Source: Thalassotalea atypica (lineage in GTDB: Bacteria > Pseudomonadota > Gammaproteobacteria > Enterobacterales > Alteromonadaceae). Taken from it: DNA of 64,000 nt. Every line of letters begins with the position of its first letter. Position 1 is the stretch's first letter. Below the pieces are notes generated by a model, which saw only the letters and a list, made by a program, of their open reading frames with translations, ran no database searches and was not told the DNA's origin. The stretch covers positions 3,286,001 through 3,350,000 of the forward strand of contig NZ_AP027364.1 in NCBI RefSeq assembly GCF_030295975.1. The letters run 5' to 3'. Made by a program: the position numbers and the translations under genes. This document shows, in pieces, positions 10,243-21,184 of the stretch.

Positions 10243-11514
10243 TTATTTATCTATCGACTTGTTCAAATAACTCTCACAAAGTTCATTTGCCGTAACCACT
10301 TGATTACGCCCTTTGGACTTCGCCAAATACATTGCATCATCAGCGCGCTGGATTAATTGATCGAAATCTGTGATTTCTTGTTGATACTGAACAAGGCCAA
10401 TACTTGCTGTCAGATTGAAAGACCGGCGTTCAGTTTGTTGATTTGTTGACGGCGATACGGCTATATGAAACTCAGCTTGAGCTATTTTATCTTTAAGCCG
10501 AACCGCAATGGATTTGGCATCGTCAAGAGTAGCACCAGGTAAGAGAGCAATAAACTCTTCACCACCGATACGTGCAAATACATCGCGAGAACGCATAACT
10601 TCTAAACCCAGTTGAGCCACTTGGATAAGCGCCTTATCACCAGTATCATGCCCGTATTGATCATTCACGTTTTTGAAATGGTCAATATCTAAATAAATAA
10701 TAGATAAAGACTGCTGCCCTTGTTTTGCTTGTTCAAACATCACAAAGCCATCTTCAAATAAACTCGCCCTATTTTTCAACGAGGTTAGGCTATCTATTTG
10801 AGCCAACCACAATAGCTTACGGCGAATATTCAATTGTCTTAACATCAACAAAATAAACACAATGGTGATACAAATTAAGATTGCTGTGTCACGTTCATTA
10901 TCTGATTTTTGTTGTTGAGCTTCTATTATTTTTAATTTTTTAAGCCTACTTTGTTCTTCAAGCAATATTTTTGCTTTATTTTTTTGCTCAATCTTAAATT
11001 TCTTTTCAAGCGTTTCATTCATCTTTTCATTGATGGATTCGTTATCATCAAATTTTCGAGTTAAGTATTTTTTCTTTTCTACGAATGCATGATCGTAATC
11101 GTTTATCTGGATATAGCTGCGCGCTAAGAGCGCGTGCAGTTCTCTAAAAGTTGATGAATTAACCTGAGACTCCGGCAAATTTTTTGCCAATGCTTTAGTG
11201 CTCTCTAGCTTTTCGATGACTAAATTGTATTTCTGCTCATTAAACAGTAGCGCGCCTTCGATAAAATTGATTAAGTATTGCTCAGCGTCATTATTAGCAA
11301 CGTCTTTAAGGTTATCTATTGAAAAACTGGAATCAATGATCATTGACTCTTGTTGCTTTAACATCTGAATAAAGCGCTTGGCTGCATCGTCAATCAAAAG
11401 GTTTACTTTTACTGGTGAAGCTTCTTCCTCTGCGACTTCTTGTGCCAACACAGTTAAAGAGACCGTTGCACAGAGATATAAAAACGATGATAAAAGCCAT
11501 GTGCTTAGCCGCAT
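10243..11514 (-). CDS. Membrane diguanylate cyclase with periplasmic helical sensor (GGEEF)
   Basis: The 423-residue protein starts with a signal sequence (WLLSSFLYLCATVSLTVLAQ). It continues with a helical TPR-like periplasmic region, a coiled coil (about 165-205), a membrane helix (AILICITIVFILLML, about 210) and a GGDEF domain (about 235-410). The active-site motif RIGGEEF and the NDQYGHDTGDKAL block are intact, so c-di-GMP synthesis from two GTP is expected. An inhibitory I-site motif RSRD sits five residues before GGEEF, which implies product feedback. The ATG overlaps the end of the upstream GGDEF gene by 10 bp and is preceded by GGGAG, so the two form an operon. Confidence 0.9.
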   Translation of the reverse strand: MRLSTWLLSSFLYLCATVSLTVLAQEVAEEEASPVKVNLLIDDAAKRFIQMLKQQESMIIDSSFSIDNLKDVANNDAEQYLINFIEGALLFNEQKYNLVIEKLESTKALAKNLPESQVNSSTFRELHALLARSYIQINDYDHAFVEKKKYLTRKFDDNESINEKMNETLEKKFKIEQKNKAKILLEEQSRLKKLKIIEAQQQKSDNERDTAILICITIVFILLMLRQLNIRRKLLWLAQIDSLTSLKNRASLFEDGFVMFEQAKQGQQSLSIIYLDIDHFKNVNDQYGHDTGDKALIQVAQLGLEVMRSRDVFARIGGEEFIALLPGATLDDAKSIAVRLKDKIAQAEFHIAVSPSTNQQTERRSFNLTASIGLVQYQQEITDFDQLIQRADDAMYLAKSKGRNQVVTANELCESYLNKSIDK

Positions 11515-13421
11515 ACTGTATTTCTCCCAGCGTGCTTAGCTTTATATAGCTGCTTATCCGCGACTTTCATTAAATCACTAAAGTCTTGGTGTTCATCTTT
11601 GCAATGTTGAACCACACCAATACTAACGCTCAGCATATGCTCTTGCATTTGCCAGATTTGTTGATAAATTTCTCGCCGTAACTCTTCAGCAATTTTCATT
11701 GCTTGGTCGAAATTGGTTGAAGGCAACAAAACCATAAATTCTTCACCGCCAAGTCGACCATATATATTTGGTGAGTGAATAATATTTGATCCGACACGCG
11801 CTAATGTTATTAGGGCAGAGTCTCCAATATTATGTCCGTATTGGTCATTAATTTTTTTGAAGTGATCGCAATCGATTAATAAGACCGACAATGGGTTATC
11901 CGTGCTGTTAGATTTTGTTAGAAGCTGGTTTCCTTGCTCAATCAAAAAACGACGATTTGCAAGTCCAGTCAAGGGATCTGTGCGTGTCGCTTGAACGAGC
12001 TTTTTTTGCCCTCGGTAAATGCGATGTAAAATCCAGCCAAAAATCAGTGACACAACGGCTAATACGGTTATGTACTTTTCTTTATCTGTGGCTTGTCGAT
12101 TGGCTTCAGAAAGTTTGATATTTTCGATATCAGCTTGGTTTTCGAGTAACTGATTTTCTAGATCGGCCTGCTCACTGTCAAAGCCTAGCCTAAGTTCAGC
12201 GACTACCTGATCTTGTTTACCGGCTAGGTAAATCATCTCTAATTCAGAATAATGATCTAACAAGTGATATGCCTGTTCAAACAATCCCAGGTCATAATGT
12301 ATAAGCGCTTGTAACACCTTAATTCTTAATGCACTGGAAATGTTATGTGAAAAGCCGCCTTCGTTAATGAGCTCTTCAGCTTCATGTAAAGTGTCTAACG
12401 CTTCATCATAATGTTTAATTGCATCAAGCGCCCATGCCTTATCAATTAAGAAACGAAGTTTAGTGTATTTACCTTCTATTTGATCAATAAAGGCACTCGC
12501 TTGTAATAGGTCTTGATAAGCTTGTTCATCAGCCTCATCTCCTTCTTTTCTCGCTTTGGCAAATGCTAGACCAAGATAAGCGCTGATAATTATTTCGGTG
12601 TTTTTAATTTTATCTTGGTTGTCTGCAATCTGCTGATATGACTCTATCGCTTTTTCATAATTTTCAATATTGGCATAGTTGATACCAAGGTTTCGCATAT
12701 TGTTATAGGCGTTACCATAGCTCTTAATTTTGATGTAATGCTGATAAGATTTTTCATAGAATCTAATTGCCTGTTCAGCTTCACCTAACTGACCATATAA
12801 AATACCTAGCTCAGAATAAATAGAGCCACTAAGCTCGTCATCATTAACTTGAAACGAGATTTTTAACGCATCTTGCAAGGCAACAATAGATAGCTCTTCT
12901 TGATTAGTTTGATAATAAATAGCCCCTAAATTAATCAAGCCCTTTGCAATTTGCTCTTGCTGCTCTAAAGATTTGGCAATTTCAAAACCTTCTAGGTAAT
13001 GGCGCTTAGCCAAAGACAAGTCGCCTAAACTCTCATTGGAAAAGCCTAAGTTATAAAATAACTCAGAAGTTAATGTGCTTGGACTATTAATGTCACGAGC
13101 TAGATTAAGGCCTTGCTCAGCCGCCTCCTTGCTTTTGGGATATTCACCTAGCTCAAGGTAGATCTCTGATTTTACATGATAGAAGTGAATTTTATCGTTA
13201 ATGCTTGTTTGCATTAACTGTGGTGATAATTCATTCAGCAGCGCAAGCGCTTCTTTTGGTTCAGATTTGGTTAAATTATCAATAAAAGTCACACGATCGC
13301 TAAAGCTCTCTTCATAAGCTGTCGTAACAAAACTTAGTAAAGAACCACATATCATGAGCAACCAAGCAACGACTTGACGCTTAATTAATCGCCGACCAAA
13401 AGTTAACAATAAACAAACCAA
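11505..13421 (-). CDS. TPR-repeat membrane diguanylate cyclase (GGEEF)
   Basis: The 638-residue protein has a basic N terminus (GRRLIKRQ), a hydrophobic signal segment, and about seven tetratricopeptide repeats (about 45-400; for example ANIENYEKAIESYQQIA and YNLGFSNESLGDLSLAKRHY). A coiled coil, a membrane helix (YITVLAVVSLIFGWIL) and a GGDEF domain (about 480-635) follow. The motif RLGGEEF and the DHFKKINDQYGHNIGDSAL block are intact. Unlike its neighbour it lacks an RxxD I-site; the equivalent residues are HSPN. The start is uncertain: the frame opens with TTG at 13421 without a clear ribosome site, and a second TTG four codons later gives an equally good signal peptide. Confidence 0.85.
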   Translation of the reverse strand: MVCLLLTFGRRLIKRQVVAWLLMICGSLLSFVTTAYEESFSDRVTFIDNLTKSEPKEALALLNELSPQLMQTSINDKIHFYHVKSEIYLELGEYPKSKEAAEQGLNLARDINSPSTLTSELFYNLGFSNESLGDLSLAKRHYLEGFEIAKSLEQQEQIAKGLINLGAIYYQTNQEELSIVALQDALKISFQVNDDELSGSIYSELGILYGQLGEAEQAIRFYEKSYQHYIKIKSYGNAYNNMRNLGINYANIENYEKAIESYQQIADNQDKIKNTEIIISAYLGLAFAKARKEGDEADEQAYQDLLQASAFIDQIEGKYTKLRFLIDKAWALDAIKHYDEALDTLHEAEELINEGGFSHNISSALRIKVLQALIHYDLGLFEQAYHLLDHYSELEMIYLAGKQDQVVAELRLGFDSEQADLENQLLENQADIENIKLSEANRQATDKEKYITVLAVVSLIFGWILHRIYRGQKKLVQATRTDPLTGLANRRFLIEQGNQLLTKSNSTDNPLSVLLIDCDHFKKINDQYGHNIGDSALITLARVGSNIIHSPNIYGRLGGEEFMVLLPSTNFDQAMKIAEELRREIYQQIWQMQEHMLSVSIGVVQHCKDEHQDFSDLMKVADKQLYKAKHAGRNTVCG

Positions 13422-13605: not shown

Positions 13606-15111
13606 TCAATTTTCCCTTGATAACATATAGTTAGCAACCGCTAATCTAGTTTCTTCATCAAGATAGTTTTGCGGCGGCATTTCAGGGTAGTCATCCCGTT
13701 TTTTCACTGGTTTCGCAATATAGTCAGCGAGCCCTTTGGCATTATCCATGTACAACGCTTGAATAATTTGTACTGGTGGACCAATCATTCTGCCTGTATA
13801 GGTATGACAGCCTGTGCAAATGCCCAGATAGGCAATTTTTCCTCTTTCTTCACTTTTAATAACGCGCGGTGCAACTGGCTCATCAAGAATATAGGTATCA
13901 ATGGCATCTGTGTTTGAAAATTCACATTCATTCCAATCATTCACGCCTACCGTGACATAACGATGACGATTAATAATACAACTGTCTCTGCTTGTACCGA
14001 CACGCAGAATATCGGGGTTACCTTGTTTGAATTCGGTCAGCATTAACGCTTTTGCTTCGTCAATGGTATCAAAACCATTGTTCATCATTAGGTTGTTGAG
14101 GATCATAATTCTATCAGGTTTAGAGTCTGCTCCTGGGTCAATCGTGGTATTGGGCGCATTTTCATGATCTGTGATGATAATACCGGCAGTTTTATTGCCC
14201 GTAATAATATTATCTTCAACTATGACTTCATCTGCTGCCATGATCAAAATACCAGTGCCTGCAGGAATACCGGCTACGGTAGAACCCGGTGCACCAAAAT
14301 TCGCCGTGTTGTTATCGACAATAAAGTTATCTCTGATGATGACATCAAAAGTCGTTTTAATTGGTAGCCCTGGGGTAATAAAGGCCAATACCCCACCCGT
14401 GTTATTGTGTACATAATTGTTTTCTACAATGGCATGACGAGAGTTTTCAATTTCAATGCCTGCAACAGAGTCAAACACTTCATTTCTTGAAACATGAATG
14501 TTATCACTCATACCTACATAAATAGCGGCGTCTTCAATGCCCGAAATGATGTTGCCTTCAACAATACCGTTTTTACCTAGTTGTGGGAAAATACCGTATA
14601 CACCGGTATCAACAATGACATTATCACGGATTTCAAAGTTGTTACCCGCTTGCCCCATGATGCCATTGCCTTTGTATTTTGTGATGGTTAGGTTTTGCAC
14701 GACAATGTTATTGCCTGAATACAAAATGGCGTCATTTAAGGTGCCTTTTCCATCAAGTATCGCGCGTTTTCCTTCACGAATAACGCCGATGATACGAATA
14801 TCATCTTTATCGATATACACGGTTTCATGATAAGTGCCAGGCATCACTTGAATGGTATCGCCTGGGCTGGCTTTTTTAACCGCTGCCATAATCGACTCAC
14901 CGTCGTCAACGACATGGGTTTGGCCCACACTTTCACGTTGAATAACAGCAGATTTTGATGCAGAGCTCCCGCTAGCTTTTTTGTCAAAACCGCCGCTATA
15001 ACTAGCGCCACCGTTACTCGAAGTGATCACAGGTGATTGATTATCTTTTCCTATAAAGAGTCCTACACCAAAGGCGACGAGTATTAGGGCGAGACCTAAT
15101 TTCTTATTCAT
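13606..15111 (-). CDS. Parallel beta-helix repeat protein fused to a C-terminal cytochrome c domain
   Basis: I start this gene at the ATG at 15111. It follows GGAG, is one base from the stop of the peroxidase gene, and opens with MNKKLGLALILVAFGVGLFIG, a membrane anchor or uncleaved signal. The 501-residue product has a linker, then repeated right-handed beta-helix turns (about 60-330; recurrent 'N-x-I/V-x-x-N' rungs such as VIVEDNIITGNKTAGIIIT). Its first repeats, SIMAAVKKASPGDTIQVMPGTYHETVYI, resemble NosD/pectin-lyase-like proteins. The C terminus carries one haem site, CTGCH (about 431), with a likely axial methionine in YPEMPPQNYL. It is exported and probably faces the periplasm. Beta-helix proteins of this type have been noted in conserved pairs of unknown function. 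Substrate and reaction are unknown. Confidence 0.82.
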   Translation of the reverse strand: MNKKLGLALILVAFGVGLFIGKDNQSPVITSSNGGASYSGGFDKKASGSSASKSAVIQRESVGQTHVVDDGESIMAAVKKASPGDTIQVMPGTYHETVYIDKDDIRIIGVIREGKRAILDGKGTLNDAILYSGNNIVVQNLTITKYKGNGIMGQAGNNFEIRDNVIVDTGVYGIFPQLGKNGIVEGNIISGIEDAAIYVGMSDNIHVSRNEVFDSVAGIEIENSRHAIVENNYVHNNTGGVLAFITPGLPIKTTFDVIIRDNFIVDNNTANFGAPGSTVAGIPAGTGILIMAADEVIVEDNIITGNKTAGIIITDHENAPNTTIDPGADSKPDRIMILNNLMMNNGFDTIDEAKALMLTEFKQGNPDILRVGTSRDSCIINRHRYVTVGVNDWNECEFSNTDAIDTYILDEPVAPRVIKSEERGKIAYLGICTGCHTYTGRMIGPPVQIIQALYMDNAKGLADYIAKPVKKRDDYPEMPPQNYLDEETRLAVANYMLSREN

Positions 15112-15112
15112 A

Positions 15113-16324
15113 TTATTCTCCGAGCACTTTTTCTGTTGAAGTGAATTTTTTGTTATTGTTAGATATCTGATATTGGCCATCGAGTGGCGGCAGTCCTGAA
15201 GGCACAGCCATGGGCACTTGGGGTGTTAAGCTTTCATCAGTTAATGCCCCTAAGAACTCTACAATGAGATCAAGCTCTTTGTCGGTCAGCTTTGGCTCCC
15301 AAATATGCCAATGTAACTGTAATTTTTCATTTTCAGGCACCGCGTGACCACGCCCTTTATTATAAAATTCTACCGTATCTCTAAGCTCACTAAAGTTTCC
15401 GGCATGCATGTATGGCGCAGTTTTGACAATATTTCTAAGCGTTGGCACTTTAAATCCACCACGTAGCTTTTTCGCCTTGTAGGTTTTCTCTGCGCCAACA
15501 TCAAACATACGATTTTGTCCTTCTGCAACCCCAATCACCGCAATTTGATTGTTGGTAAATAAAGGCGGTTGGTGGCATTCAGCACAGCGTGCAACAAAAG
15601 ATCGAAAAATGTTATGACCTTTAATTTCATTTTGAGTCAGCGCATCATGGTAACCATGCGCGTATTGATCGTAACGACTATTTAGTGAAATCAATGAGCT
15701 TTGAAAGGCGGTTAACGCTGTATAAATATGGTTTAGTTCAATTAAGGAAAGCTCTGGGAATGCTTGGGCAAACATACGCGGATAATGGGGATTACTGCGT
15801 AAAGTCGCTAACAACTGCTTTGGCGTATTACCCATTTCTTTTTTATCAAAAAGAGGCCCTGACGCTTGCTGCTCCAATGTATTTGCTCTGGCATCCCAGA
15901 AAAACTTATCCAAAAATGCGACATTCCATAGCGAAGGTGCAGAGCGTGCAACCTTTTCCCCTGTGACACCAATACTGCGATCTAAATCATCGCTAAACCC
16001 TTTTTCCGGTTGATGGCAACTGGCACAAGAGATAGAACCGTCTTGCGACAACGCAGGGTCAAAAAATAAAAAACGTCCTAAATCTATTTGCGCGGGGGTG
16101 AAGCCGTCACGATGCTTGGGCAGTGACGTTTGTGTTCCACCAACGCCCCTATTTTGCACAGAGTCGTAAATTTGATAACGATTAACCAAATGACAACGTC
16201 CATTGATCAATTCAAAACTTGGCGGACACTGCTCTGCTAAAGCAAATTGTGTCGTTGACTTTGCGTGCACGGGCTTTGCGAAAAATAAAATACTGATGTA
16301 AATAACGACAACTCGAATCATCAT
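15113..16324 (-). CDS. Dihaem cytochrome c peroxidase / MauG-family protein
   Basis: The 403-residue protein begins with a signal peptide (VVVIYISILFFAKPVHA). Two haem-binding motifs are present: CASCH (about 99) and CAECH (about 245). Typical CCP/MauG segments are LGRFLFFDPALSQDGSISC, RSAPSLWNVAF, FFWDAR and VPTLRNIVKTAPYMHAGNFSEL. Family members reduce hydrogen peroxide or use high-valent haem to oxidise protein or other substrates in the periplasm. A cysteine pair near the mature N terminus (CPPSFELINGRC) lies outside the haem motifs and may form a disulfide. The ATG is 2 nt after the stop of the c4-like gene, so the genes are tightly coupled. Peroxidase versus MauG-like function cannot be decided by eye. 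Confidence 0.88.
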   Translation of the reverse strand: MMIRVVVIYISILFFAKPVHAKSTTQFALAEQCPPSFELINGRCHLVNRYQIYDSVQNRGVGGTQTSLPKHRDGFTPAQIDLGRFLFFDPALSQDGSISCASCHQPEKGFSDDLDRSIGVTGEKVARSAPSLWNVAFLDKFFWDARANTLEQQASGPLFDKKEMGNTPKQLLATLRSNPHYPRMFAQAFPELSLIELNHIYTALTAFQSSLISLNSRYDQYAHGYHDALTQNEIKGHNIFRSFVARCAECHQPPLFTNNQIAVIGVAEGQNRMFDVGAEKTYKAKKLRGGFKVPTLRNIVKTAPYMHAGNFSELRDTVEFYNKGRGHAVPENEKLQLHWHIWEPKLTDKELDLIVEFLGALTDESLTPQVPMAVPSGLPPLDGQYQISNNNKKFTSTEKVLGE

Positions 16325-16326
16325 AA

Positions 16327-16968
16327 CTATTCACGCTGCTTAGAAATAAAATAGAGTATATCGTTAAGTTCTTTTTCAGAGACGACGCGGGCCATCATTG
16401 CCATTTGCTTACCGAGTTTATCCTCAACATGTACGCCTCTAATACCGGAAACAAAGTTCTTCATTTGCTGTGATAGATATTTAACGCGATGTCCACTCAA
16501 TTTGGGAGCATTGAATGACTTGTTTCCTTGTGCCTTACCACCATGGCAAGCACCACATTTAGCTTGGTAATAACGAGATCCATTCATGAAGTCACCTTTG
16601 AGCTCTTCTTTGTGCAAGGAAACCGGCAATGAGTGAATATACTGTGCCAGCACTGTGATATCTTTTGGATCTTTTAAATGACTAACACTCGCTCGCATCT
16701 GTTGGCCACCAGTGTCTTGTGGGTGGGCACCTCGAATACCACTGACGAAATTATTGAGCTGACGTGAAATGTACCAAGCTGATTGCCCAGCAATACTTGG
16801 CGCACTTAATTGCAGATTTCCTTGCCCTTGTTCACCATGACATGCGGTACAAGATGAGAACAATTCCTGCCCTTTTTGCGCAATTGCAACTTCTTGCGCA
16901 CCAGCAATTAATGGCAAAGACATTTGACCGACGACTAGCGCCAACGTTAAGAAAAATTTGCTGTTCAT
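16327..16968 (-). CDS. Dihaem c-type cytochrome, cytochrome c4-like
   Basis: The 213-residue protein has a cleavable signal peptide (FFLTLALVVGQMSLPLIAGAQ). Two similar cytochrome domains follow, each with one CxxCH (CTACHGEQGQG at about 38, CGACHGGKAQG at about 136) and a repeated NFVSGIRG segment. This is the tandem arrangement of cytochrome c4 (c553-type), a periplasmic electron carrier. As first gene of the operon it probably passes electrons to or from the peroxidase-like enzyme next in line. The start follows GAGAG and lies about 23 nt after the predicted transcription start of a promoter with an AraC-type operator. Confidence 0.88.
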   Translation of the reverse strand: MNSKFFLTLALVVGQMSLPLIAGAQEVAIAQKGQELFSSCTACHGEQGQGNLQLSAPSIAGQSAWYISRQLNNFVSGIRGAHPQDTGGQQMRASVSHLKDPKDITVLAQYIHSLPVSLHKEELKGDFMNGSRYYQAKCGACHGGKAQGNKSFNAPKLSGHRVKYLSQQMKNFVSGIRGVHVEDKLGKQMAMMARVVSEKELNDILYFISKQRE

Positions 16969-16997: not shown

Positions 16998-17056
16998 ACT
17001 ATATGATTGCGCCGCCGCTAATGCTGACGGATTATGGGAAAAGTCTGACGAATTTT
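16998..17056 (-). promoter_or_regulatory. Promoter of the cytochrome operon with AraC-type direct-repeat operator
   Basis: On the plus strand CTGACGGATT (17024) and CTGACGAATT (17045) form direct repeats exactly 21 bp apart, the spacing typical of AraC-family sites. On the coding strand the proximal half overlaps a -35-like CAGCAT (17026-17021), followed by a 17-bp spacer and TATAGT (17003-16998). The same arrangement occurs before the TonB receptor gene (20950-21008), with 26 of 36 bases identical and no gaps. Confidence 0.7.
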
Positions 17057-17073
17057 AAAATAACTCAATAAAA

Positions 17074-18114
17074 TCAAGAATGGCTATGCTTTTTACGGTA
17101 TTCAGTGGGTGTGATCCCATGGGTATTTTTAAATGCTTTGTTAAATGAACTTAAACTACGGAAACCACTATCAAGAGCAAGCGTTAACACCGGCATTTGA
17201 ATAAATTCGGGTTGAACTAGCTTTTCAGATACTTCACTGATGCGATAGAAATTTAGAAAGTCATTAAAATTACGATAATTCATCTCTCCATTAATGAGAT
17301 GCCGTAATTTATATTCATGAATCGCAAGGTGTTTAGCAAAACTAGCAATGGTAATACCGTCTTGTTGGTATAGCTTTTCGTTTTCCATCGCTGCAACAAT
17401 TCGCTCAAGCTCTTTCGAAGATGTTTTTATTGCATCAGTATCAGACTGTCTATTGCTTTGCGTAACAAATAATACATTGAGCTTACTTTCAAACAAAAAG
17501 TAATTGATTGTAGTAACAAGCCCTGCCATTAACAGGCTTTTGAGAATATCAATGCCACTCCAATTCAACTTTAAAATCTGTTCAACGATAATGATCAGAA
17601 AAATATAAATTGCTGATACTGAAATAACACCGCCACGAATATAACGACGCTCCTGGATTAAATCGTCACGCCAACTCAAGATAGCAACATAAAAAGCGTG
17701 AGCGATAAGTGATAATTCCAAAATTAGTTGTAAATAAAAATACACCAAGGCTAAAGAAACGTAATTGCGCAACTCTACGTCAAAACCCAACTGGATGAGC
17801 TTCACTGTTAAAGGTAATAGTAAGGTCGATGCCGCCAGCCAATATTGCCATTTCTTAATTTGCGTATTATCCGCAAATACACTTTGCGCAGTTAACCAAA
17901 ATACCCCTGGCAAAGCGTTGCCCGCAATAAAACCGATATAAAAGATTGGCGTTGAAACATAAGTATATAACTCACCAATAATATAACCCGCGCCTGATAG
18001 CATTAATAAGATAAACAACTGAATGGGTTGGTTATTTTTGTAGTGTTTCAATAATATCAATACACACAAGAAAATTTGTGCGAACGCAAAATGAGAGAAA
18101 AAAGTAGCTAGCAT
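17074..18114 (-). CDS. AraC-family regulator with N-terminal membrane domain
   Basis: The 346-residue protein has about seven hydrophobic helices in residues 1-215 and a C-terminal AraC DNA-binding domain (about 235-346). Recognition helices can be seen in ITIASFAKHLAIHEYKLRHLING and LTLALDSGFRSLSSFNKAFKNTHGITPTEYRKKH. The design suggests a membrane-embedded sensor that acts directly on DNA. It lies between the cytochrome operon and the TonB receptor gene, all on one strand. Both neighbouring promoters carry matching 21-bp-spaced direct repeats, so it is the best candidate activator of both. Its inducer is unknown. Confidence 0.88.
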   Translation of the reverse strand: MLATFFSHFAFAQIFLCVLILLKHYKNNQPIQLFILLMLSGAGYIIGELYTYVSTPIFYIGFIAGNALPGVFWLTAQSVFADNTQIKKWQYWLAASTLLLPLTVKLIQLGFDVELRNYVSLALVYFYLQLILELSLIAHAFYVAILSWRDDLIQERRYIRGGVISVSAIYIFLIIIVEQILKLNWSGIDILKSLLMAGLVTTINYFLFESKLNVLFVTQSNRQSDTDAIKTSSKELERIVAAMENEKLYQQDGITIASFAKHLAIHEYKLRHLINGEMNYRNFNDFLNFYRISEVSEKLVQPEFIQMPVLTLALDSGFRSLSSFNKAFKNTHGITPTEYRKKHSHS

Positions 18115-18207
18115 GTCTGTATTATTTCTTATTGGTATAAAATCATACTAATCATTTAACGCACAAAGTTAAATAGCATGACGGGAATCTTCAGTAGTGC
18201 TCAAAGC

Positions 18208-18235
18208 AAAAAGCCTAGCAACAGCTAGGCTTTTT
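18208..18235. terminator. Intrinsic terminator of the TonB-dependent receptor gene
   Basis: AAAAAGCCTAGC and GCTAGGCTTTTT form a perfect 12-bp stem with an AACA loop, about 20 nt after the receptor stop codon on the minus strand. Confidence 0.85.
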
Positions 18236-18254
18236 ATTCAGTTAGATTAGACAT

Positions 18255-20855
18255 TTAGAATGAGTACTTAAAGTCAACACCCGCTTCTAGACCGCGGTTA
18301 ATCCGACCAATAGGTGTACCTAAGACATCAGCCGTTAAACCACCGATAGACAAAACGTAACGTTCATCCAACAAATTTTTCCCCCAAAGGCCAACCTCAA
18401 TGGTATCGTCATCATTTTCCCAAGACACACGGGCATTAAGTAATGAGGTATCATCAAAATAAGCGCTGACTTCTTTTTTGTAATCCTCTAACCCTGGCTC
18501 ATCAGCGTTGGTATTTTCCAAAAAAACATAATCGACATGGAAATTTACTGTGCCGACATCAAAGTTGGGTGCCCAATCTAACGTCAATGTGTAGTTTAAA
18601 TCAGCATCAGAATCTGTCGTTTGAGCTGGAACTAACTCTCCTTCACCGTTATAAAAATCTGGTGAGAAATTATCAGTGCTGCGAATTTCTGAGATCACCC
18701 CCAGCGTCAAGCTATCGGTTGCTAACCATTTGAGATCAAATTCAAAACCTGTAATTTCTCTATCTTCATTAATAATAGTTGGTACCGCTTGCGGCGAGCC
18801 CGGTGTTTTAGACTGAATCGAGCGTTGTAAATTATCAAGTTCTAAATAATAGGCACTGACATTAGCGATGACTTGATCCCACAAAATACCTTTATAGCCC
18901 AATTCATAGTTAGTGGTATCTTCGGGTTCGAAAGCTTGTGTACTTGGCGCTAATGAATCAAAGCCACCTGATTTATAGCCTGTAGAATATGAACCAAACA
19001 GCATATGGTCATCATTAATTTGATAACTTGCCACTAATCTACCAGTGACTTTGTCCCAATCATCAGACGCTTTTAGATCTGCTGGCTGAAACAATAAATT
19101 GTTTACTCCGGCACGTAGCTGCGTGAACGAGTTGTCAGGTATTAACCAAGTGAAGTCTTTTTCGTCTTTAGAATAACGAAGCCCTGCAATAATGTTCCAT
19201 TGTTCGGTCAGTTTATAGTCAATGTCTGCAAAAATACCCCAGTTGGTAAAGTCTCCAGTATTGTTTACCGTTTCTTGCCACCATTGTCCGCCATAACTTG
19301 GCCCCATTACTTCAGCGAGCCCTAATTGAGCAGCGACGACATCATAGGTGACATCACCCGTTGCTTGAACAATGTCTGAAGTTAGTGGTACACCAGGCAT
19401 ACCAATTGCAGCCATAATATCATCAGCAAAACCCAATGCATTTAACGCACCCGCCCATTCTGGCGCATTCCACATATGATCCATAGGAAAGCCGCTAGCA
19501 CTATAAAAATTATCAACAACAGCCTCAAATGTTGCGCCTGGGCCAAATGCGGCTTCAGCATTGGCATCAGCATTGCCGCCAATCATGCCTGCAACTTGTT
19601 CTGCAATACCACCTCGGATGAACTGATTCAGCTCACCAGTAATTAACCTAGCCGCGGTATCAGCGGTAAGGTTTAACTCAGTTGTTTGCTTAACATCTTC
19701 TTTTGAATAAGAAAAGCCTGCCACGGCATTAATTTTATCACTAACATAATTAAGCTGTAGTTCTGTATAAAATATGTCTGAATCTTCATTATTCGAAGTA
19801 TCAAAATAACGGGTAATGTCAGCAGTACCGTCTTCATCTTGACGATTCACCGTGTCCCAATCACGATAAGAGGCGATATATTTCATTGACAAGTGCTGAT
19901 CAAACTCATGAGTTAACTTAGCGGTGATGCCATACATATCCCTTTTCTCAACACCTTTTCTAACATCATTCTCAGCCTTTGACGCGAACGGTTTAGTACC
20001 TTGATTGTAGGCAAATTCGCTAAAGCCTATCGCCATAGGGGGACCTTGTTCTAAGTCGTCAAAATCGTAAGCTATTTGGAAGTTTGTACTACTTGATATA
20101 TTCCACAACACCGAGACACGCCCCGCATCATGAGAGCGCTCTCCCAAATCCCATACTTTATTATTATCGTTCCAGTTTGGACGAGCAATATTGTCAACAA
20201 TACCGTCTTGTGAATTGGTCAACGCATTTGCACGAACAAATACATTGTCACTTATGGGCACGTTAATCATGCCTTCAATACGCTGTAAATTGTCACTGCC
20301 TAAGGTCGCTTTAACAAAACCTTCAAACTCTTGTTGAGGAGAATTGGGCACCATGTTGACGACGCCCATTGCAGCGTTTCTGCCGAACAGTGTTCCTTGT
20401 GGACCTTTTAATACTTCCACTCGCGCCATGTCTGAAAAGATAACATTTTGCGCTGCCCTTGGCATATAAACATCATCATAAAACGTTGCCGACGAAGGGT
20501 CTCCACCGACACTGATATTGGGGCTAGAAATACCACGCATAGTGATGCCAGCTTGGGTCATGTTGCCATCATCAAAGTCAAAGCCCGAAACAAATTTATC
20601 AATATCGCTGAGTAATACAGAGCTGCTTTCTTCGATTGTATCCGCGCTAATGCTCGAGACTGTAACAGGCACTTTAAGAATATTTTGAACGCGCTTTTGA
20701 GCAGTAACCGTAACTATTTCAATGTCTGAATCTGGTGTATTTTCTTCTGCAGATAACCATAATGGTGTAATGGCTAGCGCTGAGATAATCGCTTGGCTGA
20801 TAATATTGTACGAATGCACTTTACGCTGTGTTTCATGCTTACCCTGTTCACTCAT
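18255..20855 (-). CDS. TonB-dependent outer-membrane receptor
   Basis: The 866-residue protein has an N-terminal signal region, a TonB-box-like segment (IEIVTVTAQKR), a plug domain with VEVLKGPQGTLFGRNAAMGVVNMVPNSP, and a 22-strand-type beta-barrel ending in aromatic residue F (FKYSF). The general type is the large marine receptor family for sugars, lipids or other bulky ligands rather than a clear siderophore receptor. Residues about 395-530 form a long insertion rich in Ala, Gly and Met (for example GGIAEQVAGMIGGNADANAE), probably an extracellular loop. Its promoter matches that of the cytochrome operon, which suggests that the imported compound is a substrate or cofactor of that pathway. 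Confidence 0.92.
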   Translation of the reverse strand: MSEQGKHETQRKVHSYNIISQAIISALAITPLWLSAEENTPDSDIEIVTVTAQKRVQNILKVPVTVSSISADTIEESSSVLLSDIDKFVSGFDFDDGNMTQAGITMRGISSPNISVGGDPSSATFYDDVYMPRAAQNVIFSDMARVEVLKGPQGTLFGRNAAMGVVNMVPNSPQQEFEGFVKATLGSDNLQRIEGMINVPISDNVFVRANALTNSQDGIVDNIARPNWNDNNKVWDLGERSHDAGRVSVLWNISSSTNFQIAYDFDDLEQGPPMAIGFSEFAYNQGTKPFASKAENDVRKGVEKRDMYGITAKLTHEFDQHLSMKYIASYRDWDTVNRQDEDGTADITRYFDTSNNEDSDIFYTELQLNYVSDKINAVAGFSYSKEDVKQTTELNLTADTAARLITGELNQFIRGGIAEQVAGMIGGNADANAEAAFGPGATFEAVVDNFYSASGFPMDHMWNAPEWAGALNALGFADDIMAAIGMPGVPLTSDIVQATGDVTYDVVAAQLGLAEVMGPSYGGQWWQETVNNTGDFTNWGIFADIDYKLTEQWNIIAGLRYSKDEKDFTWLIPDNSFTQLRAGVNNLLFQPADLKASDDWDKVTGRLVASYQINDDHMLFGSYSTGYKSGGFDSLAPSTQAFEPEDTTNYELGYKGILWDQVIANVSAYYLELDNLQRSIQSKTPGSPQAVPTIINEDREITGFEFDLKWLATDSLTLGVISEIRSTDNFSPDFYNGEGELVPAQTTDSDADLNYTLTLDWAPNFDVGTVNFHVDYVFLENTNADEPGLEDYKKEVSAYFDDTSLLNARVSWENDDDTIEVGLWGKNLLDERYVLSIGGLTADVLGTPIGRINRGLEAGVDFKYSF

Positions 20856-21184
20856 TCTTCTCTCCCCCTAATCAACTTTGCTTGAACGCAACGTAGATTT
20901 ACCAATTTATTTTTATTTTATGCTTAGCGATTTTTATATTGCTCAATTCACTATATTGATGGAGATCAAGCAATGCTTACGGAAAGTTAAAAAAACCTGA
21001 CGAATCTTTAGAGTAACCTGAGTGATTATTGAAAACGTCAATAATAATAGCTAATTGAGTGTATAAATGTGGAAATAGAGCAAAATGAGAGGAGTTATAT
21101 CAGGTTCATTTTCGGCTACATATACCTTGTGACTTTCGCTCAATACCAAATAAGAGCCAGCGATACATATAACAGCACCCAGTG
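20856..21184. other. Promoter region of the TonB-dependent receptor gene
   Basis: This 329-bp gap contains the AraC-type operator and promoter (20950-21008) and about 90 nt of probable 5' leader before the receptor start. The remaining part, 21010-21184, downstream of the glyoxalase-like gene, shows no gene or clear terminator. Confidence 0.6.
20950..21008 (-). promoter_or_regulatory. Promoter of the TonB receptor gene with AraC-type direct-repeat operator
   Basis: CTTACGGAAA (20976) and CTGACGAATC (20997) on the plus strand are direct repeats 21 bp apart. On the coding strand the proximal half overlaps a -35-like AAGCAT (20978-20973), followed by 17 bp and TATAGT (20955-20950). This mirrors the cytochrome-operon promoter in sequence, spacing and orientation. 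Confidence 0.7.

Follow-up and report, generated by a model that had tools for sequence, protein, structure and literature searches.

Results

A five-gene locus with a candidate membrane regulator

We analysed a 64,000-nucleotide stretch of the genome of Thalassotalea atypica (the window; contig NZ_AP027364.1, positions 3,286,001 to 3,350,000), in which an AraC-type regulator gene lies between two promoters that it probably controls. Five genes follow one another there, all read from the minus strand. From the first transcribed to the last, they encode a TonB-dependent receptor of 866 amino acids (aa) with Pfam Plug and TonB_dep_Rec_b-barrel matches (18255..20855), which would be the first target, an AraC-family regulator of 346 aa (17074..18114), a di-haem cytochrome c with CxxCH motifs at residues 40 and 138 (16327..16968), whose gene opens the second candidate target, a di-haem MauG/CCP-family protein (15113..16324), and a right-handed beta-helix protein with a single, C-terminal CxxCH at residue 432 (13606..15111; Pfam Beta_helix, and NCBIfam TIGR03805 above cut-off). 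The fourth of these proteins, which has solved relatives, combines a CCP_MauG domain (Pfam, 1.4e-54) with two CxxCH motifs (residues 100 and 247), which places it in the MauG/bacterial di-haem cytochrome c peroxidase superfamily. Since it scores 223.8 bits with the MbnH model (TIGR04039), below the curated cut-off of 362.85, a role in copper is a lead only, and the receptor and MauG-like matches are too general to choose a substrate among iron, copper and organic compounds. The boundary between the receptor and regulator genes holds a strong hairpin with a T-run, a likely intrinsic terminator (18207..18236, minus strand; RNA fold -19.2 kcal/mol, z -4.97), which is absent from the list returned by a consensus terminator scan.

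The 346-aa protein has the C-terminal AraC-type helix-turn-helix that defines the AraC/XylS family. HTH_18 (PF12833) matches residues 260-341 (1.1e-13; 51.7 bits, cut-off 33.6), PF00165 scores 32.7 bits (cut-off 26.6), and solved AraC-type relatives were found, including the DNA-binding domain of AraC itself (2k9s). The C-terminal part holding this domain is the most conserved portion of the protein. Hydropathy of the N-terminal part shows about seven hydrophobic segments, and a structure model gives seven long helices there at low confidence (mean pLDDT 47), from which a membrane location is predicted.

Two promoters share 21-bp direct repeats

Half-sites were read on the coding (minus) strand with the consensus TNCGTMAG, and a pair was defined as two half-sites 21 bp apart, i.e. 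with a 13-bp gap. An earlier note on this DNA had reported a gapless alignment of 17021-17056 with 20973-21008 in which 26 of 36 bases agree, and our count is the same. When both intergenic regions were shuffled as a pair 1000 times with dinucleotides preserved, the best 36-mer match averaged 20.1 and reached at most 25 (0/1000 at 26), and we rejected a resemblance by chance. The half-sites upstream of the cytochrome gene start at plus-strand positions 17024 (CTGACGGATT) and 17045 (CTGACGAATT), and upstream of the receptor gene at 20976 (CTTACGGAAA) and 20997 (CTGACGAATC), the distance being 21 bp in both cases. Read on the coding strand, the cytochrome-operon promoter has a proximal half-site TCCGTCAG (17024..17031), which overlaps the -35 position and is conserved in relatives, and a second half-site TTCGTCAG 21 bp upstream (17045..17052); the receptor promoter has TCCGTAAG (20976..20983) and, 21 bp upstream, TTCGTCAG (20997..21004). 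The note had described two repeats per site. The exact 21-bp spacing stands, but the receptor promoter carries three copies: a third, weaker half-site, which the note had missed, lies another 21 bp upstream (CTGAGTGATT at 21018; TCACTCAG on the coding strand, 21018..21025), and similar copies occur in many relatives.

The remaining layout is identical at the two promoters, in agreement with the note: on the coding strand the proximal half-site runs into a -35-like element ending in AGCAT, followed by 17 bp and TATAGTGA. The -10 elements, both TATAGT on the minus strand, lie at 16998..17003 for the cytochrome operon, 20 bp past the proximal half-site (the commonest offset in relatives), and at 20950..20955 for the receptor. 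A consensus promoter scan gave no sigma-70-like hexamer pair using either TATAGT, as expected for activator-dependent promoters. The half-site spacers of both promoters contain a T-tract, which is imperfect at the cytochrome promoter. Distal to the pair upstream of the cytochrome gene there is also a CTGAGTTATTTT-like element (~17055-17066), resembling an inverted, degenerate half-site, that recurs in several genera (L038, L039, L061, L066 and L194; here and below, L numbers denote loci, G numbers genomes and g numbers genera).

With up to two mismatches, a scan of both strands of the window for TNCGTMAG-N13-TNCGTMAG finds only the two sites and the distal pair of the receptor site. In the whole 4.39-Mb genome, TTCGTCAG-N13-TCCGTMAG occurs with no or one mismatch at exactly these two places, and with two or three mismatches 48 times versus 61 for a reversed control pattern. 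This pattern was drawn from both sites, which makes the two perfect matches circular, but not the absence of further ones.

The locus in the family

We surveyed 295 genomes of the family. Regulator orthologues (E <= 1e-77) are present in 39 of them, and a further three matches (~1e-41 to 1e-43) represent distant relatives. Fifty genomes have the MauG-like protein (E <= 1e-90), among them all 39 with the AraC orthologue. Besides the window, 38 loci were fetched, and in 33 the receptor, AraC, cytochrome, MauG-like and beta-helix genes lie in this order on one strand. Another locus (L070) has the same order plus a second receptor, while the other four lack the receptor (L046 and L055), a cytochrome match (L062) or the whole operon (L044). 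One more regulator orthologue, from another family of the order, has a pair with two mismatches between its AraC and MauG-like genes; there is no cytochrome match at that locus.

A few observations concern individual loci. Two of the distant regulator relatives (L077 and L148; ~30% identical) have as neighbour a beta-helix protein that shares 33% identity with the one in the window, the other genes being missing, which is perhaps an older pairing; the 10-kb stretch around the third (L076) holds no other gene of the locus. In L059 (genome G019) several tandem copies lie between the AraC and cytochrome genes, from ~9770 in the orientation used, and the repeated stretch apparently takes in the 3' end of AraC. 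The MauG-like match has one internal stop each in G156, G174 and G072 (TAA, TAA and TAG). In the window, the operon is followed by two adjacent genes for diguanylate cyclases (10243-13421), of which one has TPR repeats; they fall outside the conserved set.

The operator is conserved in sequence, spacing and position

The note had proposed a scan of related genomes for the repeats beside orthologous genes, with their absence counting against it. We collected 37 receptor and 38 cytochrome upstream regions, window included, with bounds set from protein matches; the L039 region, whose receptor site is ~480 bp ahead of the gene, was widened by hand, and the L143 and L144 promoters were also included. 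The repeats proved to be conserved in loci from 19 genera. Exact 21-bp pairs number 10 in the receptor regions and 17 in the cytochrome regions, while exact pairs at other spacings from 8 to 60 bp (excluding 42) have means of 0.00 and 0.14 and maxima of 0 and 3, respectively. There are none at 21 bp on the reverse strands of the upstream regions, nor on either strand of the ~0.69 Mb of remaining locus DNA. Allowing one mismatch per half gives 20 receptor and 26 cytochrome pairs. In the remaining DNA the two strands yield 1 and 4 such pairs, and other spacings there average 1.96 and 2.45. With up to two mismatches per pair, 27/37 receptor and 31/38 cytochrome regions pass, and 37 of the 39 AraC loci have a site at one promoter or more (L057 and L059 fail).

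Position is kept as well. Where a pair (up to three mismatches) and TATAGT (up to one) were both recognised, the step between them is 20 bp in 12/16 receptor and 18/25 cytochrome promoters. Across the 19 genera the repeats keep their spacing, strand and distance to the -10 element, and the surrounding DNA is much less conserved: information content, computed on 24 and 30 better-scoring relatives, is high in the half-sites and the intervening T-tracts but low in other parts, with the CGTCAG core as the most constrained part of the promoters. Among aligned promoters with a score of at most 4.5 (25/38 and 31/39), the T fraction is 0.70-0.90 in the spacers versus 0.23-0.43 in other promoter parts. 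A strand-specific, conserved direct-repeat operator near -35, of the kind found with AraC/XylS activators, is thus present, and its binding protein would be the regulator encoded beside it.

The operator accompanies the regulator gene

Eleven genomes, drawn from two genera, carry the MauG-like and beta-helix genes and no AraC orthologue at E <= 1e-40. In these the cytochrome is unrecognised in two, and the receptor lies on the opposite strand and is 28-29% or 46-48% identical. The 21-bp pair (up to one mismatch per half, either strand) is found in none of the eleven loci, which are 11 to 18 kb long. No replacement AraC-type regulator was seen among the nine flanking open reading frames scanned in two of them (L180 and L185), and L185 has a MarR-type protein.

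Conversely, in three genomes a target lies apart from the AraC gene and the operator is present. In the single contig of G046 the operon lies near 2.26 Mb with an exact pair and the AraC gene near 1.0 Mb, ~1.25 Mb away. In the draft genomes G053 and G096 the receptor is on a different contig from the AraC gene and is preceded by an exact pair.

A genome-wide search of the AraC set for a T-tract-bearing pair pattern (up to one mismatch) gave 45 matches in 27 of the 39 genomes, of which 43 are at the receptor or operon and two inside reading frames; among the 43, one at a contig end repeats the G096 promoter and two promoters are counted twice through overlapping pairs. In 39 genomes without the orthologue there are two matches, one inside a reading frame and one at a remnant of the locus in G005. 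These 39 are the 11 AraC-less genomes and 28 from the head of the list, hence not a random sample, and one of them (G015) has a distant AraC relative. The reversed control of the pattern gave three matches in each set. A structured pattern applied to the whole family matched 31/295 genomes, namely 23/39 with AraC and 8/256 others, with one genome for its reversed control. The eight comprise the G005 remnant, two stretches without locus genes (G185 and G247) and five judged by eye from the match alone.

The G005 remnant deserves description. This genome, of the same genus, has no AraC orthologue or MauG-like match, and its operator (L145:9159-9538) lies directly before a 100-aa frame; this frame is covered by a match, at 82% identity, to the beta-helix protein's C-terminal haem part. 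No receptor match occurs in the 18 kb fetched. A large deletion has likely joined the receptor promoter to the operon's end.

Discussion

A probable two-promoter regulon and its alternatives

The regulon is strongly supported by comparative genomics: the 346-aa protein is very probably a membrane-integral AraC-family activator of two promoters through 21-bp TNCGTMAG repeats. In this one-component regulator the sensor would be carried by about seven N-terminal helices embedded in the inner membrane, and the cytoplasmic C-terminal AraC domain would bind direct repeats that are spaced by two helical turns and finish at the -35 position. Two or three half-sites, aligned on the same face of the DNA, would be bound, with contact to RNA polymerase at -35. 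The protein would thereby drive two separate promoters, one for the TonB-dependent receptor and one for the cytochrome c, MauG-like and beta-helix genes, and the proteins for import across the outer membrane and for redox processing in the periplasm would be made together. Co-control of receptor and operon suggests a link between the two, in which the receptor would bring in what is processed by the periplasmic haem proteins, or the reverse.

Several observations weigh against this interpretation or narrow it. At up to two mismatches the best of 30 other spacings passes 16/37 receptor and 25/38 cytochrome regions, so this cut alone is weak evidence for one spacing, and it is the exact-match counts that carry the point. 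Seven g52 genomes with AraC (L068-L073 and L075) have no recognisable receptor-side site and keep the cytochrome-side pair (0 to 2 mismatches), which may mean that one of the two targets was lost or rewired; in g14 (L052, L056, L057 and L059) the receptor half-sites are 22 bp apart or degenerate. The orthologue from another family has only the operon-side site, with no pair before its receptor, and the receptor promoter of G096 has the pair and no clear TATAGT. The T-tract-bearing pattern has no match in 12 of the 39 AraC genomes and only one off target in a 13th (G238). The AraC-less MauG-like genomes come from two genera only and represent few independent events, and the Fisher p of 2e-9, which ignores kinship by treating genomes as independent, overstates the case. 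Finally, the membrane topology depends on hydropathy and the low-confidence model. The note's claim that the AraC-type protein controls both promoters is supported in the main, with the site in 37/39 AraC loci versus 0/11 AraC-less ones and at relocated targets, but control of the receptor is not universal, as g52 illustrates.

Could another DNA-binding protein read the repeats, the AraC-type gene merely accompanying the locus? Regulator and targets are usually neighbours, and linkage alone could give much of the co-occurrence; against this, the site persists at targets that lie apart from the AraC gene in three genomes and is missing without exception from the 11 AraC-less MauG-like loci, and 21-bp direct repeats at -35 fit AraC-type binding, so we regard a different reader as distinctly unlikely. 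An architectural role for repeats and T-tracts as curved DNA, with no dedicated regulator, would account for the strong T-tracts in the 21-bp spacers. It is highly improbable, because the most constrained part is the CGTCAG core, this core is almost confined to the two targets in AraC-bearing genomes, and the repeats are not found in the 11 loci without AraC. The AraC-type protein might instead bind these sites as a repressor, for example by blocking -35 until a signal relieves it, and both the overlap of the proximal half-site with -35 and the repression known for some AraC-family proteins are compatible with such a role. We consider this unlikely, given that the consensus scan found no hexamer pair using either TATAGT and that the distance to TATAGT, 20 bp in most promoters, has the look of class II activation. 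Binding by the 346-aa protein, activation rather than repression and a location in the membrane are what we infer.

Relation to known regulators

Direct repeats 21 bp apart that overlap -35 are usual for AraC-family activators. The system resembles AraC/XylS activators such as Escherichia coli AraC on araI in its HTH_18/HTH_AraC domain above cut-off, its repeats two helical turns apart and its proximal half at -35. It differs in its N-terminal part, predicted to be a membrane domain of seven helices where AraC has a soluble ligand-binding domain, in the three half-sites of one promoter and in its core sequence.

ToxR, TcpP and CadC are examples of transmembrane transcription regulators. Membrane-bound one-component regulators are described as widespread, with single-pass forms in the majority (~56%), and the action of membrane-fixed transcription factors on their target genes as poorly understood (PMC10269533). 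The protein studied here is predicted to share with them the fusion of a DNA-binding domain to a membrane part in one component, and it differs in its AraC-type domain and several helices; the word AraC is absent from the main text of that survey (PMC10269533). In Saccharophagus degradans, 16 of 31 AraC-type proteins were called membrane-bound, several of them beside polysaccharide-degradation genes; the authors think that the neighbouring genes are the targets, and one protein has two membrane segments (PMC2386152). The likeness lies in an AraC-type domain fused to predicted membrane segments; the neighbours here are a TonB receptor and haem proteins, and no operator for the S. degradans proteins is given in the parts of that article we consulted (PMC2386152). 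As in the MbnH/MbnT sets near methanobactin operons (PMC3621798), a MauG-like di-haem protein lies near a TonB-dependent transporter, but a haem beta-helix protein adjoins the MauG-like protein here instead of a recognised MbnP. Within the open-licence literature we found no paper clearly about this gene set, and none on the repeats and their spacing.

The regulator is therefore of a known kind; the new elements are an operator that is both defined and conserved, a regulon with two targets, and targets located far from the gene of the regulator. A more specific picture is possible, though we offer it tentatively and with more doubt than confidence: a polytopic membrane AraC activator dedicated to just two promoters, reading arrays of two or three half-sites, all on the same side of the helix in 21-bp phase, with phased T-tracts curving the DNA, and with no need for gene proximity. 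The operator at the G046 operon, 1.25 Mb from the regulator gene, indicates that such a regulator would not need proximity.

The locus offers a small natural system in which one predicted membrane regulator, two promoters and a sharply defined operator come together, along with natural variants, i.e. genomes with a target apart from the regulator and a genus without one of the two sites. Shared control of the conserved set of TonB receptor, cytochrome c, MauG-like protein and haem beta-helix protein suggests that they serve one task, which is a lead to their substrate.

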